Origin: a candidate division SR1 bacterium
GTDB lineage: Bacteria; Patescibacteriota; Gracilibacteria; Absconditabacterales; Absconditicoccaceae
Assembly (NCBI GenBank): GCA_002746475.1
Contig: PDOX01000037.1
Location: 1-12,523 of the forward strand
Direction: 5' to 3'
Length of the DNA stretch: 12,523 bases
This document shows positions 639 through 11,399 of the stretch, piece by piece. The notes beneath the pieces are model-generated. The model had not been told where the DNA came from, did no database searches, and was given only the letters and a program-made list of their open reading frames with translations. How positions within the stretch are numbered: the stretch's first letter is position 1; each line of letters starts with the position of its first letter. The translations under genes were made by a program, and so were the position numbers.

Positions 639-3600
639 ATGCCAGAAAATACAAGTATATTAGAGCAATTAGATGCACAAGAAGTGAAAGATAACAATAT
701 AGATACTCACGAGCTAGAAGAAGCATTGAGGAGTTGATTTTTTGATAATAAAGAAAATATTATAAAACTGAAAGATGAGTTGGAAAGTGATAATGCAGGA
801 TTGAAGAAGTTGTGAGATAGTTTGAAAGCAAGTTTTCAAAAAATGTTACAAGATGGAAGGAGTAATGATAAAGTATTAGATATTACAAAAATCCTTTATG
901 GAGAAAAATTTCTATCAGCATGATCAAAAGAAAATATTAAGAAAAATGAAAAAAATAATGAAAAAAATAATGAGGGAGAAGAGAATAATAAAATAGTAGA
1001 AATGAACGAAAAAATATTTGAAAATGAAGGAAATGATTATATAAAAAATTTAGAAGAATTGTGAATAGATTGAAATACAAAATTGAATTGGAGAAACGTA
1101 GTTCAAGATATAAAAACAGTTGCAGATATACAAAAAGTAACTTCTGAAACTTTACAAAAATATCTTCCAAACACAGAAAAAATGGAGGAATCAGACCAAG
1201 AATATATTGTAAATAATATACAAGTATTTTTAACCTATTATTTGGGGTGTTTTCCCAAATATCAATCTCCTTTGATAGAAAAATGATTGATGACAGGATT
1301 GAGTTTGCAAGGGATGAATAATGAAATGCATTATTACATCAATGTTGTAAAATTAGCGAAACAGTTATGGTGAAAGACAAATATTCTAGCGTGAAATATA
1401 AATGTAGCAGAACAAGGAAATAAAGATGCATTAAAATTTTATATTAAACAGTCTGCATACTGAAAAAGTGATAAAGATATTAACAAATTTCTGTGAACAT
1501 TGCTGGGTAGTGCTTCAGAAAAGAATAAACAATCAATCATACAATGGGCGAAAAAAGATAGTTTTTTCAAGCCACTTGCAGAGCATATAGAAAATAGTAA
1601 AAAGATTGATGCTTTATACGCAGAGGCTGAAAAGTTTGGTTTTGATAGATCAATATCTGTAGAGGAGATTATATGATTTTATACTGCTATTCAGGAAAAT
1701 AATCAAAAAGTACAGCAAATAGATCATGAAGTAAAAGCTAAAATTGAAAAAAATAAAAAAGATTATCAAGAGGCATGAATCTTTCAAAAATTATTATTAA
1801 ATTGAGCAGATGCTAGAGCTCTTGATCGTTGAGGAATGACAAGAGACGAATTAGAAAGGAATGAAGGTAAAATAAAAAAACAAGAATGTATGCAAGCAAT
1901 GGATAGAAAATATGTAGAGATTATGCTCAAAAAAGATCCTAAACCTACATGAACGATTCCCTCTCCTTTTACAGGAGTAGTACTAGATTTTTCTAAACAA
2001 GGAGTCGATGCAATTATTAGAGATGGATTTTGAGAGCAGTTTGGTGATCAACGAGAACTGTTTAAGAAGAATATAAAAGATGATAAGCAGGCTGCATTTT
2101 GACAAGCGGTATGAATGATTGGAGGAATTGCAGGTGCTACATTGGTATGATTAGCATCAAAAAATCTTCTAATAACTTCAGCATGATTTACAACAGGATT
2201 GAGATTAGGAAATGGGATTGGTCAAGAAGCACGAAATGCTGGAGAACGAGTATTTAATATAGAAGAAAAAGGAAACAATAAAATAGATACTTTTTGAGAT
2301 TCATTTATGAGAGGAGCAGGACTTGAAGAATATACCTATGACAATGAAGGAAAAGTGACAGGACAAGAATTTGTAGGATGGGGAAAACTTGCAACAGATG
2401 TATGATTTGATTATGTTTCTACCGCAGCAACGTTTGGTATCGGAAATAAATTTGCACCATTTCTCAATAAATTATGATGAGCGAGACTTAAGGGAATTAA
2501 TATTTGACATGGATTGAAGTTTGGATTTGAAGAGTTGTTTATGGAGTCATTTTTAGTAGATATTCCTATGAATATTGTACATTCTGGGGTTAATGCTTTT
2601 GTGTTTGGAGAAGGTGAAATCGTGAAAGGACAAACTGCATTATGAAACAAAATGAATACAACAAAACAGAATGTAGCACAATATAACCTAGAAGATGCAC
2701 TTACTATAATGGTCGATGCATCAAAAGAGAATCTTTCGTTTGAAAATCTATCACAGGTATTTTTTAATACCATAACCTATTGAGGATTGTTAGAATGAGG
2801 AGGTGCAGCAATTAGAAAAATTAAAGCTAAGACATCTAAATACACCACATTTCAAACTGATCTTGTTTCTGGAGTGGATGCGTTGCACATCGCAGAGCAA
2901 TGATTACAAAAATTCTTATCTGAAAATAAAATAGCTCATGATAAGGCCAAAAATACTTTCACAAAAGATGGGGTGATATTGACAGGAGATCTGCAAAAAC
3001 AGCTTACGGAACATATGGGAAAAGTAGTGCAAGCACAATCAGAACAGGCGGGGAAGATGAAAGCATTTATGACCGAATATAGACAAAAACTTTCAGACAA
3101 AAATAGCCTTGTGGGGATGTTAGCTAAATTTTGATTGATGAAAGGATATAGAAATCCAGCTAGCATAGTAGCAAAGAGAATACAAATATTAGATAAAAAA
3201 ATTTCAAAAGAACAGAATATAAATGAAAAACAGAAATTAGAAAAATTGAGAGATGAATATCATAAGATTCAAGAAAAGTTAGGAGAGAATAATAATAAAA
3301 ACGAGCTAAAAATACAAGATCAGCAATCCTCTATCCCTGAAAACATTCAAACAGAAAATTCACTTAATTCTGATAGGTTGGTTGATGCAGATGGGAATAT
3401 TAATATGCAAGCTAAAAAATACATAGAAAAGTATTTACAGGATCAGGGAGTGCTATGAAAATGAGAAACATTAACAGAAGCACAAGCAAGAAAAATCTAT
3501 GAAGTCCACAATATGGAGAGAAAAGTGTGAGAGACTGATGATATGGCTTTGAATACGAGAAAATGACTTGCATTGAGAGGATTGTTTTCTCAAGAGCAGA

Positions 3601-6600
3601 TCGTGGTGTTGTTGAGAGGGAAAGTGTGTGGGAGGATTTTTGATAAATTAGCATATTACTGAAAAAATAGACTATATAAAAGAGAACTTGCACAAAATAA
3701 GGAATTAACATTCAAACAAAAAAAATTACTGTATAGATTAATAGATTATGGTTTTGCAAGAAAAGATATACAAGACCTACTAAAACAGCCTGCTCATATC
3801 AAAAATCCTGTATTAAATTATCATGGAAATATACAAAGGCTTGCATCCATAAAGAAAAAGTTAGAAAATATTTGAGTCAATATATATGCTCACAGTGTTC
3901 CTATATTAGAAAAATGTACAGACACACAAATTAGTTTATTAGAACATTTAATACGTAAATATCCCATAGTTAAAGATAAAATAGATATTCAGGTACAATA
4001 TATTAAAGAGATACCTGTTGATAGTAATAAAGTAGAGTTATTTTGAGAATTAGTTGAAAATTGATTATGGAATAGTGGAAACCTAATTTCATTTACATGA
4101 TGGAATAATTTAACTAATAATCTAAATGAGGGTAAAGAATGTATAAAATTACTAAAAGAAAAGAAGTTGGAAGATATATCGAAGACTTTAGTGCAAAATT
4201 ATTGATTCAACATAAAAAATGTAAAATATATTGCTGAAATTTATAGTAAGTTAGATATATTACCATGAGTATATAGAAGATTTTTTCTTGATAAAATTAA
4301 AAGCCCAAATTACGATTTAGAAAGAACTAATAATAAGTATATAATATATGGGCGTTCTCTAAGAGATGATATTGTTGTTTGGAATGATTTATTAAAAGTT
4401 TCTTTAGAAAGTAATAATCAAGAATCTATTTCTTTTCTCAATAAAATATATGACATTCAAAAAAAAGTACAAAAAAAGAGACATTTAACAGTAGAAGAGA
4501 TATCTTTAATTGGTCTTATGAAATATATCATAGATGGTAATTTTTCTGAATACTCTAATATAATGGAAGGAAATTCAGAAATAATACAATCAAAGTTGCA
4601 AGAAGCATTTGTTGTAATAGAAAAACATATGTTTCATAGGAAAAAAGTAAAATCTATAATAGAAGAGACTTGACGTAACATAGAACAAAAGACAAATAGT
4701 CATGAAAAATTAGTAGTTAATTGAAAAATAAAACTCCCTCAATGACAATATCGAGTAAAGGGAATTAAGTCTGTCGATTTTTCTGAATTTTGGAAAAATT
4801 GATTTTTAGCTCCGGAATTTATACCTTGAGCAAACTCTGATCAAACACCATATGATACTGATGGTATAGTAATGGAGAAAAATATACAAAAGATGTCAGA
4901 TTGGTCTAATGAATATGGAAATTGAATAGTTATTATATCGAGATTAACTACAGAACAATATGATGTGATGCAAAAATCAAATTATAAGAGAACAATTACT
5001 AAGAAAAGCGTGTTATTACAATGATCAAAATATGAAGGGAAAAGATTTTTTGGTGTTAGATCTGGATTGTCATCTTCTCAAGTTGATTGTATATTGATTG
5101 CGGATTATCTTTTGAATAAACAACAAAATATATTAAAAAAAATGAAGAGAAATATTATTGAACAAGGATTTTATACTCCTATTGTTGACAGTAAGGGGAC
5201 AGTATTATTTACTCCCGAGGAATTTCATACTACATTAAAAGATATACGTAACCCCTATTTCTGAAAAGAATCAAAATTCTGATTTAATGAAATACAAACC
5301 AAAGCAAACTCTCAATTTATGGATAGTCAGTTAGAAGGATTGAATGAGGGGAATAAAGCTGAAAAGATTCAAAATATAAGAGAAAAAGTTCAAGAACTCT
5401 ACAAACAAAAAACATGAAACGAGCTAGAATTGACTGATGAACAAGTCTTATCACTGATGGATGCTCATGAAAAAGATGGAAAACTTGGGGAACTTACCAG
5501 TACAGAATTGAGAATAAAAGTAAAAACCCTCGCAGAAACAATCAAAGATCCCGAAGTGAGGAGATTTTTGTTAGAAGCTGGATTTAGTGGGAAGATGGGA
5601 GCTTTTAACGAGTGATTTAATCAAGAACTGTATGAACAGAATAAAAAAATTCTAGCTGATTTGAGTATTGATATAGATATGAATATTGTGAAATGATTAT
5701 CAGAATTAGGAATTGATTTAAATAGTATTACAGATCCTCATGCTTTAATTGATTTTTGTGAAAAATATTCGGTAAAAGAGTTAAAATATCTTTATGATTT
5801 ATGATGTAATATTAATGATATTGTTATCCCATTCGATAGTCCCTCCTTAAAGGGAATAGAAAATGTATTGTCGTTAAAACCTCAAATAGAATCATTAGGT
5901 ATTGATTTTGGATCTGTTGGTATTTATGATATGGTCAGTTCCATTGCTGATTTAGTACAAATAACAGAACATGATATAGTACATATTAATAGTATTAAAT
6001 CAGAAATTGAAGATATGGGAGTTTCATTGTCACTTGATAACTTAAAGTTTTGGAGTAAGATATGATTATGAGCAGATATGGCAAAATTGAGAGCTAATCT
6101 CTGAGCATTAAAAAAAGCAAAGATAGATATAAAAACAGATAATGAAAGTTTAAATAATTTGCTTAATTCTCCAGATTATTGGACTAAGGAATTGCCTGCT
6201 ATTGTATATACTTTATGATGAGTGTTTAGGCATTTAGATGGTAATATATTGTCAAAGCTTAATTTAAAACAAGCAAAAAAAACAAAATACTTACATACTT
6301 TAGGAGTAAAAATATATGAGTGGCAGACAGAAAAATGTGATAATATCAGTATAGAATCTATAAAAAAATATAAAACATTGAAACATTGAATAGATAAGTT
6401 AGGAATTAACATGGATATAAATGATTTCTCTGATATTGAAAAGATAGATGTAGATGATTTTTATGCAAATATAGAAAGAAATATAGAAAAAAAATCATTC
6501 TTGGATCAATTGGGTATAAATCTTTATATTTGGAGAATTGAAAATATACAAAAATTAAATATCAATACATTAAAAAAAGTTGTAGCAATAAAGCCAAAAC

Positions 6601-8027
6601 TTGAACAGCTTGGAATAGAAGATATAGAAATATGGGATATTAATAGATTATGAGAGTTAAATGATGTGCAAATACAAAATGTTACTAATATAAAGGAAGT
6701 ATTGAGGGAAGCAGGTATCAGAATATCAGCATGAAATATTAAAGAATTATCAAAATTGAATGAGGATGATATAAAAAAAATTGCAAAGATAAAAAAAGAA
6801 CTTTCTCAAATAGTAGAAGATGTAGAATATATGAGAGTAGATGAGTTATTAAATATAAATGAAGAAGTGTTAAAAAAACTCACAATACAAAAAGTAGAAT
6901 GATTGAATAGAGAAAATATTGTTATTGCAAGCGAACTTGTTATGCAAACAGATATGAAAACTATGAGAGATTTTATAGAGAGAAAAAAATCATATTTAGA
7001 GAAGAATAGAACTTTATCTGAAGAGCATTTTAACGAACTCTTTAGAAAAGAGAAAGTGATCTCGAAAGGGAGATATTTTTATCAAAAATTTGTAGATTTT
7101 TTGAATACATTATTAGGTCGTTATAGTAGTATCCCTTCTAAATATGAAAAAGTTTTTGTCCAAGGGAAATATGGGAAAGCTGAGATCAAACAAAATAATT
7201 TAGGGCTTTGTTATGCATATACTGGGTTTGAGATTCTTAAAAAGAGTAATTATTTTGACACTATGGTACAAACATCAATGAGAGAAATTCCATGATGATG
7301 GGAAATAAAAGTACCATTTGGAAATAAAGATGGGAAAACAATAAAAGTCTATGAAAATGAATTAGACAAAAAATATACATTTGTAGATAATAAGAGTGGA
7401 CATGAAAAAACAGTTAATATTAATAGTAATTCTGCAAAATGATTTAAAATTCTAGAAATTGCATTTATAAAAGAATATATACTTCATTATTCTGGTTGAA
7501 GAGAGGATATATATGATAGTAATATACATATACAAAATGCAAGAAGGCAATTTGAACAGAATGGTATATTTGAGATGACATGAGAGTTGTTGAATACAGT
7601 GGAATGATGATGGACTATGGAGTTTTTGCATCATATGTTATGAAAGGATATTATAAATTCAGTTCGTATTAGAGACAGTGTTCAGAAAGAAATGGCATTT
7701 GAACAAATAAAAACATGATTAGTAAAAATAGAATTATCGTCTTATATGAATAAAAATGATGCTTCTAATACTGTAAAAATTGTAGATGCAGATGAAGATT
7801 GAAAAGTAAAATCTTTTAAAGTTCAGTGAACAAAAAAAGTACTATATACAGGTCATGCATATTCTATAGAAAAAGGGTATGTAGATTCAAAGACAGGAGA
7901 AAAGATGGTTGTTGTAATTAATCCACGGAATACATCAAACAAAATACATATGACATTGGATCAGTGTATGGAATGATTTACAACTTGGGAAATAAATCAG
8001 ATAAATATTGATAAGATGTTTAGGTAA
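639..8027 (+). CDS. Giant multidomain protein (~2462 aa) with C-terminal calpain-like cysteine protease domain
   Basis: The frame is free of TAA and TAG from ATG 639 to TAA 8025 and contains about 75 TGA codons, read as Gly. Layout by residue: helical, charged N-terminus without signal peptide; Gly-rich hydrophobic segments at about 488-515 and 580-661; coiled coil about 847-885; a short module at 945-1003 repeated at 1598-1656; a CPR-type domain about 1365-1545 (GFLAPEF, GVRSGLSSSQVD, FTPEEF); an LxxLGI helical solenoid about 1687-2120; and a protease domain about 2150-2462. The protease has Gln2185 six residues before Cys2191 (QNNLGLCYA), His2406 (GHAYSI) and Asn2428 (INPRN), matching calpain QxxLGDCW, GHAYSV and RNPWG. 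The FKILEIAFIKEY and GELLNTVEGGW segments also fit calpain landmarks. The Cys-His gap (215) is longer than in classical calpains. It is probably an active cysteine protease; target and location are unknown. There are no EF-hand or C2 domains. Sure of the frame and protease fold, unsure of the other domains. Confidence 0.9.
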
Positions 8028-8145
8028 GTGTTTCTGATTCAGTTTTCACGAAAATTTCTCTCCTCCTAAAAATATATTTTTGTGGAATATAATGGGGTAC
8101 GGCTAATAAAGTATTAACATACCGCTCAAGCATAATGTTTTTCTC
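8028..8145. other. Intergenic region with promoter-like motif and hairpin
   Basis: Between the giant gene and the toxin promoter there is a TATAAT box at 8088-8093 preceded by the A/T-rich string AAATATATTTTTGT (8070-8083), which recurs exactly at 8851-8864. Directly after it, 8096-8123 can fold as GGTA/TACC and TAATA/TATTA arms around a 3-nt loop. No T-tract terminator is evident after the giant gene. No coding frame of note is present. Confidence 0.45.
8070..8093 (+). promoter_or_regulatory. Recurring A/T-rich promoter-like motif, copy 1
   Basis: AAATATATTTTTGT followed by GGAATATAATGG gives a perfect -10 box (TATAAT, 8088-8093) but no clear -35. Related copies lie at 8851-8872, 8980-8998 and, more weakly, 12003-12026, always between genes. 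A transcript from here would start near 8100 and run through the hairpin at 8096-8123 towards the toxin gene. Confidence 0.4.
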
Positions 8146-8173
8146 TTGAAAAAGATATACAAATTGATATATT
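8146..8173 (+). promoter_or_regulatory. Promoter of the HicA/antitoxin operon
   Basis: TTGAAA (8146-8151) and TATATT (8168-8173) are spaced by 16 nt. The expected transcript start near 8180 lies downstream of the TTG at 8172, which rules that codon out as the toxin start and leaves ATG 8196 or 8223. Two inverted repeats immediately overlap or follow the -10 box, as expected for an autoregulated toxin-antitoxin promoter. Confidence 0.55.
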
Positions 8174-8182
8174 GTATATACA
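8173..8182. promoter_or_regulatory. Candidate operator 1 (perfect palindrome TGTATATACA)
   Basis: A 10-nt perfect palindrome starts on the last base of the -10 box and covers the expected transcription start. Ribbon-helix-helix antitoxins typically bind short palindromes in this position, so binding here by the downstream antitoxin would block initiation. Regulation is inferred from placement. Confidence 0.45.
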
Positions 8183-8189
8183 CATATTT

Positions 8190-8204
8190 AACAGTATGAC
8201 TGTT
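8190..8204. promoter_or_regulatory. Candidate operator 2 (AACAGT-ATG-ACTGTT)
   Basis: Two perfect 6-bp arms surround the ATG at 8196. The centre is about 20 bp, two helical turns, from the centre of the palindrome at 8173-8182, so both sites face the same side of the DNA, as for cooperative repressor binding. In RNA the arms could pair only weakly because the loop is 3 nt. Confidence 0.4.
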
Positions 8205-8222
8205 TACTTTGAAAAATATTTG

Positions 8223-8462
8223 ATGTCTAAGAAAGATAAAATTAGAGAGCAGTTACTTCAAAATCCGACCAATCTTTCTCTCTCAAAGATTCTTTCTTTT
8301 CTTGAATCAGAAGGATATAGGGTAGAACAACCTACAAGTGGTTCTCATCATAAAATCAGGCATCTTGCTAGTGATAGATATGAAACGATTGCTATTCACC
8401 ATAATGATTGTAAGCCAATTTATAAAATATTGCTAAAAAAGCTTTATCTTAAAAATATATAA
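8223..8462 (+). CDS. hicA: HicA-family mRNA interferase toxin
   Basis: The 79-residue protein has the longer HicA layout: a helical lead (MSKKDKIREQLLQNP), a segment like the family's LLES.GF (FLESEGYRVEQ), the GSHHKIRH motif with catalytic His42/43, and a C-terminal IAIHHNDCKPIYKILLKKL segment. HicA toxins have a double-stranded-RNA-binding-like fold and cut mRNA, and are neutralised by a HicB partner. The ATG at 8223 was chosen because it gives the normal family N-terminus and lies downstream of the operators; ATG 8196 would add nine residues and sits inside an inverted repeat. No Shine-Dalgarno is visible, as for several genes here. The antitoxin gene begins 2 nt after the stop, in the toxin-first order usual for hicAB. 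Confidence 0.82.
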   Translation: MSKKDKIREQLLQNPTNLSLSKILSFLESEGYRVEQPTSGSHHKIRHLASDRYETIAIHHNDCKPIYKILLKKLYLKNI

Positions 8463-8464
8463 AC

Positions 8465-8827
8465 ATGAATAAGAAAACAGATATGAATACCACCAAAACT
8501 ACAACTAAAACTACAACATTGTATATTCCCGTGGGAGTGAGAAAGTACCCTCTTACGATTACGTATACAGGGGAAGTGTTAGAGTGAACAGAACTTGTGC
8601 ATGTTTTTTGCCAAGAAGCGAGATTAGACCAAGATTATCCTAAGGAAGATTTATCGTTGTTATTACAAGATATGGAATATCTCATCCGTGATGAACAAGC
8701 ACAAAAAAAGAATAGTGTGATCAATATTCGTGTAAAAGCAAAAGATAAGGAACTCATCCAAAATTATGCTCAACAATGAGGGTTTAAATCTATTAGTGAG
8801 TATATGCTTGCTAGATCTCTTGCGTAG
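8465..8827 (+). CDS. HicB-like antitoxin with C-terminal ribbon-helix-helix domain
   Basis: The 120-residue frame ends at TAG and reads two TGA codons as Gly (residues about 41 and 104). A Thr/Lys-rich N-terminus (NTTKTTTKTTT) leads to a middle region (TELVHVFCQEA, then EDLSLLLQDMEYLI) that loosely resembles the degraded RNase H-like fold of HicB. The C-terminus has a clear ribbon-helix-helix pattern: INIRVKAKDKELIQNYAQQ, then a Gly-Gly turn and FKSISEYMLARSLA. This tail should dimerise and bind the operator-like repeats at 8173-8204, while the N-terminal part should bind HicA. It is toxin-coupled, with a 2-nt gap. The RHH assignment is firm; the HicB label for the N-terminal half is weaker and rests partly on its hicA neighbour. 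Confidence 0.72.
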
Positions 8828-9099
8828 TTGAAACTTTCCGCTTGAAATAGAAATATATTTTTGTAGTATAGTGGTATATTTATAAAAAATTTTTCTAATA
8901 TACTGGTATAAATGAAAAAAATTTTGAGAATGTCATAGTTTATACCCTTTTGGGCAATTGAGGAGTATCTATAAAAAAACATATTTTTGGAATATAATCT
9001 ATACATTCACCTGATTTTGTGGAATAAGATTTTTTCTCTTGCAACTAATAAACTAATCCCTATCATAAAAACCATATTTACATGGTAAAATAATAACGT
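8828..9099. other. AT-rich intergenic region before efp
   Basis: It holds a second copy of AAATATATTTTTGT (8851-8864) followed by TATAGT (8867-8872), and a third related motif with TATAAT at 8993-8998, about 100 nt before efp and the best candidate for its promoter. A 7-bp AT-only inverted repeat, GTATATT/AATATAC, spans 8874-8903. No gene, tRNA or GC-rich terminator is seen. An ATG at 8911 opens only eight codons. Confidence 0.45.
8980..8998 (+). promoter_or_regulatory. Candidate efp promoter (recurring promoter-like motif)
   Basis: CATATTTTTGGAATATAAT matches the string at 8074-8093 except for a 2-nt deletion, and ends in a consensus -10 (TATAAT, 8993-8998). No -35 match is found at the proper distance. 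The transcript would carry a leader of about 95 nt before efp. A further weak relative (TTTTGTGGAATAAGAT) lies at about 9016-9031. Confidence 0.4.
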
Positions 9100-9654
9100 A
9101 TGGTAAAAATTGATACAGCAAAAGTAAAGAGAGGAATTGTTCTCAAAATTGATGGAAAATTATTTAGAGTTACAGATACTTCACACACCCATATGGGAAG
9201 AGGAGGAGCTACGGATACTTTCAAAGTAAAGGATATCGTTTCTGGGAAAACCAATGTTTTCACCTATAATGCAGGGACAACACTTGAACAAGCAGAAGTA
9301 CAAACTAATGCAGCAATTTTCTTGTATGAAGCTGGTGGAATGTATAGTTTCATGGAAAATGATACGGGTGAAATGTTTGAACTTGATGAAGAGAAAATTG
9401 ACGATGTTGTTGGTTTTTTGAAAGAAAATCTTGATGTATATTTGATGATTTATGAAGGAGAAGTTTTAGGAGTAATACTTCCAACAACTATTGAATATAC
9501 CATCACATCAACAGTACCAGGAGTGAAAGGAAATAGAGCACAGTCGGGAACTAAACCTGCAACCATTGAAACAGGAATGGAAATCCAAGTGCCATTGCAC
9601 AAATCAGAAGGTGATACCGTTACGGTTAATACCCTTACTGGAGATGCAAGTTAA
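9100..9654 (+). CDS. efp: Translation elongation factor P
   Basis: This 184-residue protein is close to the usual EF-P length (188 in E. coli). EF-P binds between the P and E sites of stalled ribosomes and promotes peptide bonds at proline runs. All three beta-barrel domains are present: the KOW-like N-terminal domain (KRGIVLKIDGKLFRV), the central domain (GGMYSFMENDTGEMFELDEE) and the C-terminal OB domain (PGVKGNRAQSGTKPATIETG...VPLHKSEGD). The functional loop reads THMGRGGA, placing Arg34 where E. coli has the modified Lys34. All 19 glycines use GGN and none use TGA, unlike neighbouring genes. There is no Shine-Dalgarno before ATG 9100. The last 20 bases overlap the 3' end of the convergent kinase gene. 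Confidence 0.96.
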   Translation: MVKIDTAKVKRGIVLKIDGKLFRVTDTSHTHMGRGGATDTFKVKDIVSGKTNVFTYNAGTTLEQAEVQTNAAIFLYEAGGMYSFMENDTGEMFELDEEKIDDVVGFLKENLDVYLMIYEGEVLGVILPTTIEYTITSTVPGVKGNRAQSGTKPATIETGMEIQVPLHKSEGDTVTVNTLTGDAS

Positions 9655-10189
9655 TTAATTTATCTATTTGCTGATGAAGTTCTTCAACGGTTCCATTGTT
9701 GTTGAGGAGGACATCAGCTTTTTTTATACATCAGAAAAGATTTTTTTTATGTGCTTCAAGATTTGCGCTTTCAGATTTTTCTTGTTCTTGAAATTTTTCA
9801 AAACTTACATCATCTTTTTCCGATCCTCTCAATGTTATTCTCTCATATCTAATCTTTTGATCTGCATCTATCGCCCAGAGAGAAAAGTTTCCTTGTTTGT
9901 GTAAACTCTCTATTTCTCACAAGGTGCGAATAGATTCGATGATACAGTCTTTTCAATTCTTTTCAGCAAGTTTATAGAGTTCCTCTACTAGATATCAGGG
10001 TCAGAATTTTTTTCTTAATTCATCAGATACTTTACCCATACTATCCCTATTTATTGGAAGTCCTTGTTCTTTGATAATATTTCTTAAAAAACCACTGACA
10101 GAATAATGAACAAATCATTTGTTTTTAAGGTATTCAACAATAGTTCCTTTCCCGGCTCCATTTGTTCCTGTTAGTCAGATGATTTTCAT
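9635..10189 (-). CDS. P-loop nucleotide kinase, adenylate/dephospho-CoA kinase-like (UPF0200-type)
   Basis: Read on the minus strand, the frame codes for 184 residues with seven TGA codons as Gly. It starts MKIIGLTGTNGAGKGT, a Walker A loop typical of nucleoside monophosphate and dephospho-CoA kinases. It continues with HYSVSGFLRNI (like the SxGDxLR segment), DELRKKFGPGYLVEEL, IIESIRTLGEIESL (like the DGxR segment), WAIDADQKIRYERITLRG (lid and arginines) and a C-terminal ADVLLNNNGTVEEL. The order fits archaeal UPF0200/AAA_18 kinases better than bacterial CoaE or Adk. It probably phosphorylates a nucleotide or dephospho-CoA using ATP; the substrate is not readable from sequence. It is divergent from the isomerase gene and overlaps efp tail to tail by 20 nt. 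Confidence 0.85.
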
Positions 10190-10382: not shown

Positions 10383-11399
10383 ATGGCAGATTTCTCAAGA
10401 GTACAGGATATTGCAAGTAAGATCCAATCCATAGAAATCCAGTGAGCAACCAATGTTGCCAAAGCAGGATTCAAAATCATGGAGGAGGAATTACAAAGAC
10501 AAACATTTTCTGATTATGAAGAACTTCATAAATTTACTAAACAAGCCTCTCAATTGTTGATGTTGGCGAGGGATACCGAGCCAATGCTGTTTAATGGATT
10601 GACCTATGCCTTGAGCGTGTTAGAAGAGGAAGGGCAGAAGGTCACTCAGAGCGTGAGCGAAGAGTCTAGTATGTCTGTTATGGATTCTTCAGCTTTGCTT
10701 CAGAATGACTCTAGTATTTTACAAGCTATCCAACAAAAGGTTGCCGATTCCTACCAAGAATTTTTGCATATGATTAAGAGAGAAAAGGTGAAAAGAATTG
10801 AAATTGGGACTACGTTGATTGACGAGGGGGATAATATCGTAAATCATTGTCATTCAAGTTCTGCGGTAGATATTCTCATCTGAGCACACAGACAGGGAAA
10901 AAATATTCATGTATACAATACCGAGACTAGACCCTTGTATCAAGGGAGGATCACTTCCACAGATTTAGTCAATGCGGGGGTTCCGACAACGATGATTACT
11001 GATAGTACAGCAGGGTTTTTTATTGATAATCTGTATGAATCCCATGTGCATATCAATAAGGTGATTATTGGCTGTGATGCAATAAAACTGAACGGTGATG
11101 TAATCAATAAAGTGGGAAGTTTTAATATTGGGCTTTCGGCTTGGCATAGTGGAATTCCGTTGTATATCGCGGGGAGTTTGCTCAAAGTGGATACGGTCGA
11201 TAGTATCGAAATTGAACAGAGATCTCCGGACGAAGTCTGGCCAGAAAGACCAGAGCAACTGGATATCATCAATTATGCTTTTGATATGATTCCTGCAAAA
11301 TGCGTGACAGGGATTATTACGGAATTTGGCGTAATTCCTCCTTGGGAGTTAAAAAATACGATCAAAAAATATCATCCGTGGATGTTGGGGGAGAAGTAG
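10383..11399 (+). CDS. e2b2: Ribose-1,5-bisphosphate isomerase (eIF2B alpha/beta/delta family)
   Basis: The 338-residue protein begins at ATG 10383 and ends at TAG; two of 20 glycines are TGA. A helical N-terminal domain (IQSIEIQGATNVAKAGF) is followed by a Rossmann-like domain with NHCHSSSAV (Cys156), VYNTETRPLYQG, MITDSTAGFFI, IIGCDAIKLNGDVINKVG (Asp232), RSPDEVW and ITEFGVIPPWEL. The Cys and Asp match the catalytic pair of archaeal R15P isomerase, and ETRP..QG and EFGVIPP are shared with it. The enzyme converts ribose-1,5-bisphosphate to ribulose-1,5-bisphosphate in AMP salvage, upstream of form II/III RuBisCO, a pathway reported in CPR bacteria including SR1. A Ser-rich insert at about residues 88-110 looks variable. 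Methylthioribose-1-phosphate isomerase is a less likely alternative. Its base composition is somewhat more GC-rich than the giant gene. Confidence 0.85.

Follow-up and report, generated by a model that had tools for sequence, protein, structure and literature searches.

Among bacterial calpains, proteins of up to 3,754 residues have been described, with the peptidase mostly at the C terminus and predicted signal peptides in 3 of 66 (bacterial-calpain section of Rawlings 2015, PMC4631099), and a reviewer's comment printed with that article considers WXG-domain fusions of such calpains likely secreted toxins. The present analysis concerns a window of 12,523 nucleotides (positions 1 to 12,523 of contig PDOX01000037.1, assembly GCA_002746475.1) from a candidate division SR1 bacterium of the class Gracilibacteria and family Absconditicoccaceae, a tiny and probably host-dependent organism. 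Within this window, a giant gene encodes a protein with a calpain-like domain at its C terminus and is directly preceded by a small partner gene (Table 1). We favor, with moderate confidence, the interpretation that the giant is a delivered effector carrying a protease head and paired with the small gene. A preliminary description of this DNA had regarded a bacterial calpain in so large a protein without a signal peptide as unusual, a view that the calpains described in 2015 do not support (PMC4631099).

A recoded giant frame with a calpain-like C-terminal domain

When translated with table 25 (TGA as Gly), positions 639..8027 form one uninterrupted open reading frame (ORF) with 75 recoded codons, as the preliminary description had held in proposing a single frame of about 2462 residues. 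With table 11, the same interval falls into short pieces, the longest listed plus-strand ORF having 130 residues. The protein had accordingly been called hidden by recoding; the fragmentation is real, and nothing in it goes beyond the ordinary consequence of code 25. TGA supplies 75 of the 181 Gly codons of the giant, next to 59 GGA, 24 GGT, and 23 GGG. In the calpain domains of nine standard-code relatives, the mean share of Gly was 46% at the 11 TGA columns versus 43% at the 10 GGN columns; of the 93 cells in the TGA columns, 45 were Gly, with Ala as runner-up (8 cells). Five of the 11 TGA columns had Gly in zero or one standard-code relative, as expected for unconserved sites. Since relatives that do not recode show Gly at TGA columns as they do at GGN columns, the predicted reading of TGA as Gly in the giant is supported.

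The Gln, Cys, His, and Asn residues of the putative active site stood in the translation exactly where they had been placed before (Table 1), Cys2191 being one of two cysteines beyond residue 2150 and Gln2185 presumably serving the oxyanion hole. The comparison with homologues that had been proposed as a check was carried out, and the positions proved conserved: among 19 aligned domains, nine of them from standard-code genomes, Gln, Cys, and His were present in all and Asn in 18, with Asp in its place in L197 (L and G numbers denote loci and genomes). All four residues were invariant in eight aligned domains from the family, which are 25 to 42% identical to the domain in the window. Two matches were kept out of alignment A1, namely L021, a 441-residue ORF that is the match in G046 and looks like chance (E 0.009), and L022 (G018, E 1.9e-6), in which Gln, Cys, His, and Asn are present on reading. 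A profile of the 19 domains (A6) matched 19 PDB sequences at E ≤ 1, of which 18 are named calpain (best 4.6e-8); the remaining one, 1kxr, is titled "thiol protease domains I and II" and is, we assume, a calpain core. The eight-domain profile gave 19 PDB matches at E ≤ 10, including one unrelated protein (ADP-ribosylation factor, E 0.38). Pfam Peptidase_C2 (PF00648) matched 14 of the 19 domain members singly (best 7.5e-12), and L197, L198, and L199, full giants of other families, passed its cut-off themselves.

Peptidase_C2 did not match the window's own copy of the domain alone, hmmscan of the window protein gave nothing above cut-off in Pfam or NCBIfam, and phmmer of the domain against PDB gave a single chance match (E 2.4). 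The calpain link of the window is seen only through its homologues. A PF00648 search of the window's own genome carries no information, having yielded no match and no control match either. The earlier proposal of a calpain-like cysteine peptidase at the C terminus is nonetheless borne out at the sequence level by the conserved residues, the PDB calpain matches, and Peptidase_C2 in homologues; its assignment as a putative C2 peptidase holds, and proteolytic activity is predicted. A single-sequence search found the domain in 8 of 49 family genomes, the window's own included, of which at least one is probably a chance match, and the profile found it in 9 of 49; across the class, the profile matched 26 of 353 genomes. 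Calcium-binding domains had been described as lacking, and to the extent that Pfam can tell, the window indeed has none; nor did its N terminus match an EF-hand-like loop pattern. Among the proteins compared, that pattern was found in the first 60 residues of 11 of 56 (10 plausible, at least one probably chance) versus 15 of 1060 control stretches.

A small partner gene and exchange of heads among relatives

A single nucleotide separates the small ORF from the giant, a pairing that the preliminary description had overlooked, and the product of the small ORF has, by eye, a helical look and an acidic C terminus. To count such genes, an upstream ORF of 80 to 160 residues was required to end between 30 nt past and 60 nt before the start of the following gene, at loci picked by calpain, core (a conserved module of the giants), or module M and not by partner; core matches in frames truncated at a contig edge (L047, L048, L054) were excluded. 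A small upstream ORF preceded 16 of 16 core-bearing frames with the start in view (two from other families), as opposed to 8 of 175 other genes of at least 250 residues (Fisher p about 1e-17, with related sequences counted apart) and 2 of 15 others of at least 800 residues. L199, a calpain giant by Pfam that the calpain profile missed, sits among the other genes in this count. Thirteen of the 16 small genes were of the A3 type; within the family, this type preceded 13 of the 14 core giants with the start in view (window included), L045 having a different small ORF. A looser test with partner-chosen loci and nested starts allowed (17 of 21 versus 129 of 409) is superseded by the stricter rule. 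A3-type partners, often in multiple copies, turned up in 54 of 353 genomes across the class and in 40 of 49 in the family (own included), and no PDB match of the A3 profile rose above chance (best E 0.043). Eleven of 13 core-less calpain ORFs lacked a small gene, which indicates that the small upstream gene tracks the giants and not the protease. In two other families, which use the standard code, core and calpain are again paired and preceded by a small gene (L197 and L198).

Pfam heads above cut-off were found in 6 of 14 core giants scanned: Zeta_toxin twice, M23, A_deaminase, Metallophos, and HATPase_c (Table 1), with L054 outside the scan. When the last 980 residues were scanned in 20 of 37 further partner-linked proteins of at least 550 residues, three had a head above cut-off (PP2C_2, Peptidase_Mx1, and NAGPA). 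A RelA/SpoT head suspected on the L014 giant was rejected, Pfam having listed none there; L093 has a sub-threshold match. Nine of the 11 recognised heads in core-bearing frames lie C-terminal to the core. An abrupt junction, at about residue 835, was seen between L016 and L043, from one genus, which share 841 N-terminal residues at 91% identity before identity in 60-residue windows drops from 95% to 68%, 19%, 10%, and 26%; past this break only the core is common (61% over 153 residues), and the heads are M23 plus calpain in one and A_deaminase in the other. L042 and L044 have a C-terminal part of 652 residues, core included, in common at 54%, on N termini that are weakly similar (30%). In L015 and L046, zeta head and adjacent downstream gene go together: the heads are 53% identical over 302 residues and the downstream genes, read from a motif as HD-type hydrolases, 55% over 255 residues. 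In G034, G038, and G039, which belong to one genus, giants of different build lie between one and the same pair of genes, tsaD and ppdK as we read their sequences; two of these giants, L015 and L042, still have several blocks in common. The lineage retains fronts and exchanges heads, among them calpain, M23, zeta toxin, phosphoesterase, and adenosine deaminase.

Multidomain giants with zeta-like and metallopeptidase heads resemble polyvalent proteins of mobile elements, which act in intracellular conflict between phage or plasmid and host, and at L016 and L043 the partner was the sole matching neighbor, these loci of one genus having no other neighboring gene in common. We nevertheless consider a polyvalent protein very unlikely, as several neighbors of the giants look housekeeping, tblastn with the calpain domain (TGA read as stop) had no match in 50,697 phage and 72,556 plasmid records, and no core relative was found in viral contigs. 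Alternatively, the protease might be a regulatory or housekeeping enzyme of the cytoplasm that happens to be attached to a very long scaffold and is never exported. Seven module-less calpain ORFs of 410 to 477 residues occur in relatives, two of which (L019 and L020) are close homologues within one gene neighborhood; the giant showed no hydrophobic stretch near its N terminus in a hydropathy scan made without a signal-peptide program; and the calpain fold is mostly intracellular in eukaryotes (according to parts of PMC4631099). This alternative is unlikely in our judgment, since both the sharp head exchange on a conserved N terminus in relatives and the patchy distribution of the calpain domain fit effectors better. 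An effector-like role had been suggested in the preliminary description and gains support from the C-terminal head exchange in relatives together with the partner gene.

Two loci carry further arrangements of calpain genes. In L014, positions 7401-9719 encode a 772-residue repeat-plus-calpain protein without a core just upstream of a partner-giant pair, which may be a separate head cassette. In L201 (2096-9466), two tandem calpain ORFs are each followed by an ORF of about 125 to 130 residues with, by eye, the same C-terminal motif; these small genes could be candidate immunity proteins.

Modular architecture and proposed delivery of the giant

The giant is modular ahead of its protease domain (Table 1). 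Its N-terminal region aligns with residues 131-773 of L053 (24% identity over 669 columns), and a profile built from both regions did not retrieve a further member from the ORFs compared. The Gly-rich hydrophobic stretch in this region is a possible membrane-insertion segment; 9 of 13 relatives have a stretch with hydropathy above 1.6, a value that the window does not reach. Module M, with the conserved motifs GIRTG-PSSE and IPI-D--G--IFTPEQF, was also found in L164, L165, L166, L167, and L168. Its profile had one PDB match, a CBS-domain protein (E 0.0023, 39 positions), and an ADP-ribosyltransferase-like fold considered for it was dropped, that search having given only the CBS-domain match. 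The core of the window (114 residues) is 50 to 54% identical to the cores of three giants that differ elsewhere. Across the class, the core profile matched 60 of 353 genomes (within the family, 20 of 49), and a second core in the window's own genome is cut by the edge of contig C25. In a phylum sample of 379 genomes, eight matches were found, the own genome included, and only one lay outside the class (G517:C1:29702-29986, L210, within a 1586-residue frame). Searches of PDB with the core gave no relative beyond chance. The repeats precede the protease domain. In L050 (6035-8416), a 793-residue ORF right after a core giant starts with near-identical repeats that look, by eye, like those before the calpain domain of the window.

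Table 1. Features of the giant locus (window positions) and Pfam heads of related giants
Feature	Position	Strand	Basis
Small partner gene, 106 aa	317..637	+	aligned with nine homologues (A3), all of which immediately precede a giant with a core
Giant modular protein, 2462 aa, code 25 (TGA=Gly)	639..8027	+	table 25 translation
N-terminal region, aa 138-714	1050..2780	+	common to L053, which bears another head (HATPase)
Gly-rich hydrophobic stretch, aa 485-515	2091..2183	+	best 19-residue hydropathy mean 1.51
Degenerate first core copy, aa 896-999	3324..3635	+	15.0 bits, A4 profile
Module M, aa 1353-1549	4695..5285	+	also in five standard-code giants (1295-2791 aa; two are truncated at contig or fetch ends)
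Core module, aa 1540-1653	5256..5597	+	133.7 bits, A4 profile; conserved mark of the family
Repeats of ~33-37 residues, alpha-type by eye, aa ~1665-2135	5631..7043	+	self-matches at offsets 37, 67, and 70
Calpain-like (C2) cysteine peptidase domain, aa ~2170-2462	7146..8024	+	homologue alignment, profile matches
Q2185, Gln preceding the putative catalytic Cys	7191..7193	+	invariant, 19/19
C2191, putative catalytic Cys	7209..7211	+	invariant, 19/19
H2406, putative catalytic His	7854..7856	+	invariant, 19/19
N2428, putative catalytic Asn	7920..7922	+	18/19; Asp in L197
L015 head: Zeta_toxin, plus A1 calpain domain			Zeta_toxin by Pfam
L016 head: M23, plus calpain			M23 by Pfam
L043 head: A_deaminase			Pfam
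L046 head: Zeta_toxin			Pfam
L052 head: Metallophos			Pfam
L053 head: HATPase_c			Pfam

Repeats and one hydrophobic stretch would also suit a giant surface or attachment protein, forming host-contact fibers, with the protease used for self-maturation. Vampirococcus, which uses code 25, offers a parallel. It is a predator of a related lineage whose giant membrane proteins are thought to form a fibrous surface (parts of PMC8080830). No adhesion domain reached the Pfam cut-off in the window, where CshA_repeat scored only E 0.079. Relatives moreover bear zeta toxin and adenosine deaminase domains, which act inside cells, and we regard an attachment protein as quite unlikely.

If the giant is instead a delivered effector, positions 317-637 and 639-8027 would act as one module. 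The small protein may bind the newly made giant and keep it export-ready, and the N-terminal approximately 800 residues, with the Gly-rich hydrophobic stretch, may serve export and entry. The core, to judge from its usual position, would be the junction to the variable part, and the repeats would display the head or bind a target. The C-terminal domain is predicted to cleave proteins of the contacted cell through its conserved Cys-His-Asn triad. Delivery, target, and activity are put forward here on sequence grounds. A VirB4/TraG-type ATPase (PF19044) was found in 46 of 49 family genomes. Parts of type IV secretion systems are reported from Patescibacteria, with some missing or divergent in Gracilibacteria (sections of PMC12102498), and groundwater Gracilibacteria are reported to encode subunits of type II and of pilus-related type IV secretion, some detected as proteins (sections of PMC11452946).

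Several observations weigh against a delivered effector with exchangeable heads. In the window's own genome, which is 66% complete, the search did not detect the PF19044 ATPase, and a Pfam scan of the window showed no recognisable immunity gene beside the giant. Head exchange was shown for relatives and not at close range for the front of the window's own giant, because its N-terminal region matched only one other giant, L053. No recognisable Pfam head was present in 8 of 14 core giants or in 17 of the 20 further partner-linked proteins scanned, and two recognised domains, the calpain domain of L015 and the M23 domain of L016, sit before the core. The small genes of other families have no detectable homology to A3. 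Finally, none of the seven calpain ORFs below 600 residues had a small upstream gene, nor did four of the six larger core-less ones.

Downstream of the giant, positions 8172-8827 probably hold a toxin-antitoxin pair of the HicA/HicB type, both genes scoring below their Pfam cut-offs of 27: a HicA-like gene comes first (HicA_toxin, 22.2 bits) and one resembling ribbon-helix-helix proteins second (NikA-like, 25.8 bits). Beyond it lie a gene presumed from its look to encode elongation factor P (9100-9654), a minus-strand gene resembling P-loop kinases (9635-10189), and an IF-2B family gene with two TGA codons (10383-11399; PF01008, 6e-57).

Meaning and comparison with described systems

No prior description of a module family with this core and partner was found among the top-ranked results in the open-licence literature; by their titles, the two papers that mention Gracilibacteria together with calpain deal with Candida and with caries. 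We tentatively propose, as a possibility short of a firm expectation, that bacteria of the class Gracilibacteria, many of them TGA-recoded, possess a so far undescribed set of giant polymorphic effectors that are each made with a dedicated partner and a core specific to the lineage and that reach prey or host through the bacteria's own secretion route; the calpain giant would be one warhead. If so, we would know of no earlier case of a polymorphic weapon system in these ultra-small bacteria, and calpain peptidases would be extended to a weapon-like bacterial setting. For the question of how ultra-small predatory or epibiotic bacteria act on the cells that support them, the giants and their partner supply named genes, and the core and partner profiles let the family be located in genomes.

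The C-terminal domain resembles the bacterial branch of C2 (PF00648) in its Gln, Cys, His, and Asn residues, NCY- and HAYS-type motifs, C-terminal position, and, as for most of these proteins, the apparent lack of a signal peptide (PMC4631099). It differs in that the window copy is too divergent for the Pfam model, and the repeats, core, and module M are not described in the bacterial-calpain section of that article. The giants of Vampirococcus lugosii likewise belong to a predatory lineage of the candidate phyla radiation, its ten longest proteins having 1392 to 4163 residues, whereas they are described as membrane proteins with adhesion-type and alpha-2-macroglobulin domains (parts of PMC8080830).

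By Pfam, no trafficking domain (WXG/LXG, PAAR, RHS, or MuF) was found in the window (E up to 1) or in 14 relatives (E up to 0.05). LXG toxins of type VII secretion have small alpha-helical partners. The present locus is like them in encoding a small protein directly upstream of a large putative toxin, and differs in that no LXG/WXG family was detected (Pfam and NCBIfam scans of the window, Pfam scans of the 14 relatives) and the A3 partner profile found no PDB relative above the level of chance.

A downstream gene was shared only by the zeta heads of L015 and L046, and none was recognised for the calpain head. The window's protein differs from polymorphic toxins in being giant-sized and without a known trafficking domain or recognised immunity gene, and because of these two absences membership among them is not claimed. 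The searched part of the account of polymorphic toxins by Zhang et al. 2012 (PMC3482391) does not contain the terms calpain, zeta, or adenosine deaminase; it describes a conserved N terminus and exchangeable C-terminal enzymes, papain-like peptidases among them, to which the giants are alike, as is the cassette-like unit of head and neighboring gene seen here for the zeta heads. A constant front, exchanged heads, and a partner gene together look like the hallmark of polymorphic toxins, seen most clearly in the relatives, and suggest that the giant family works in the manner of such toxins.

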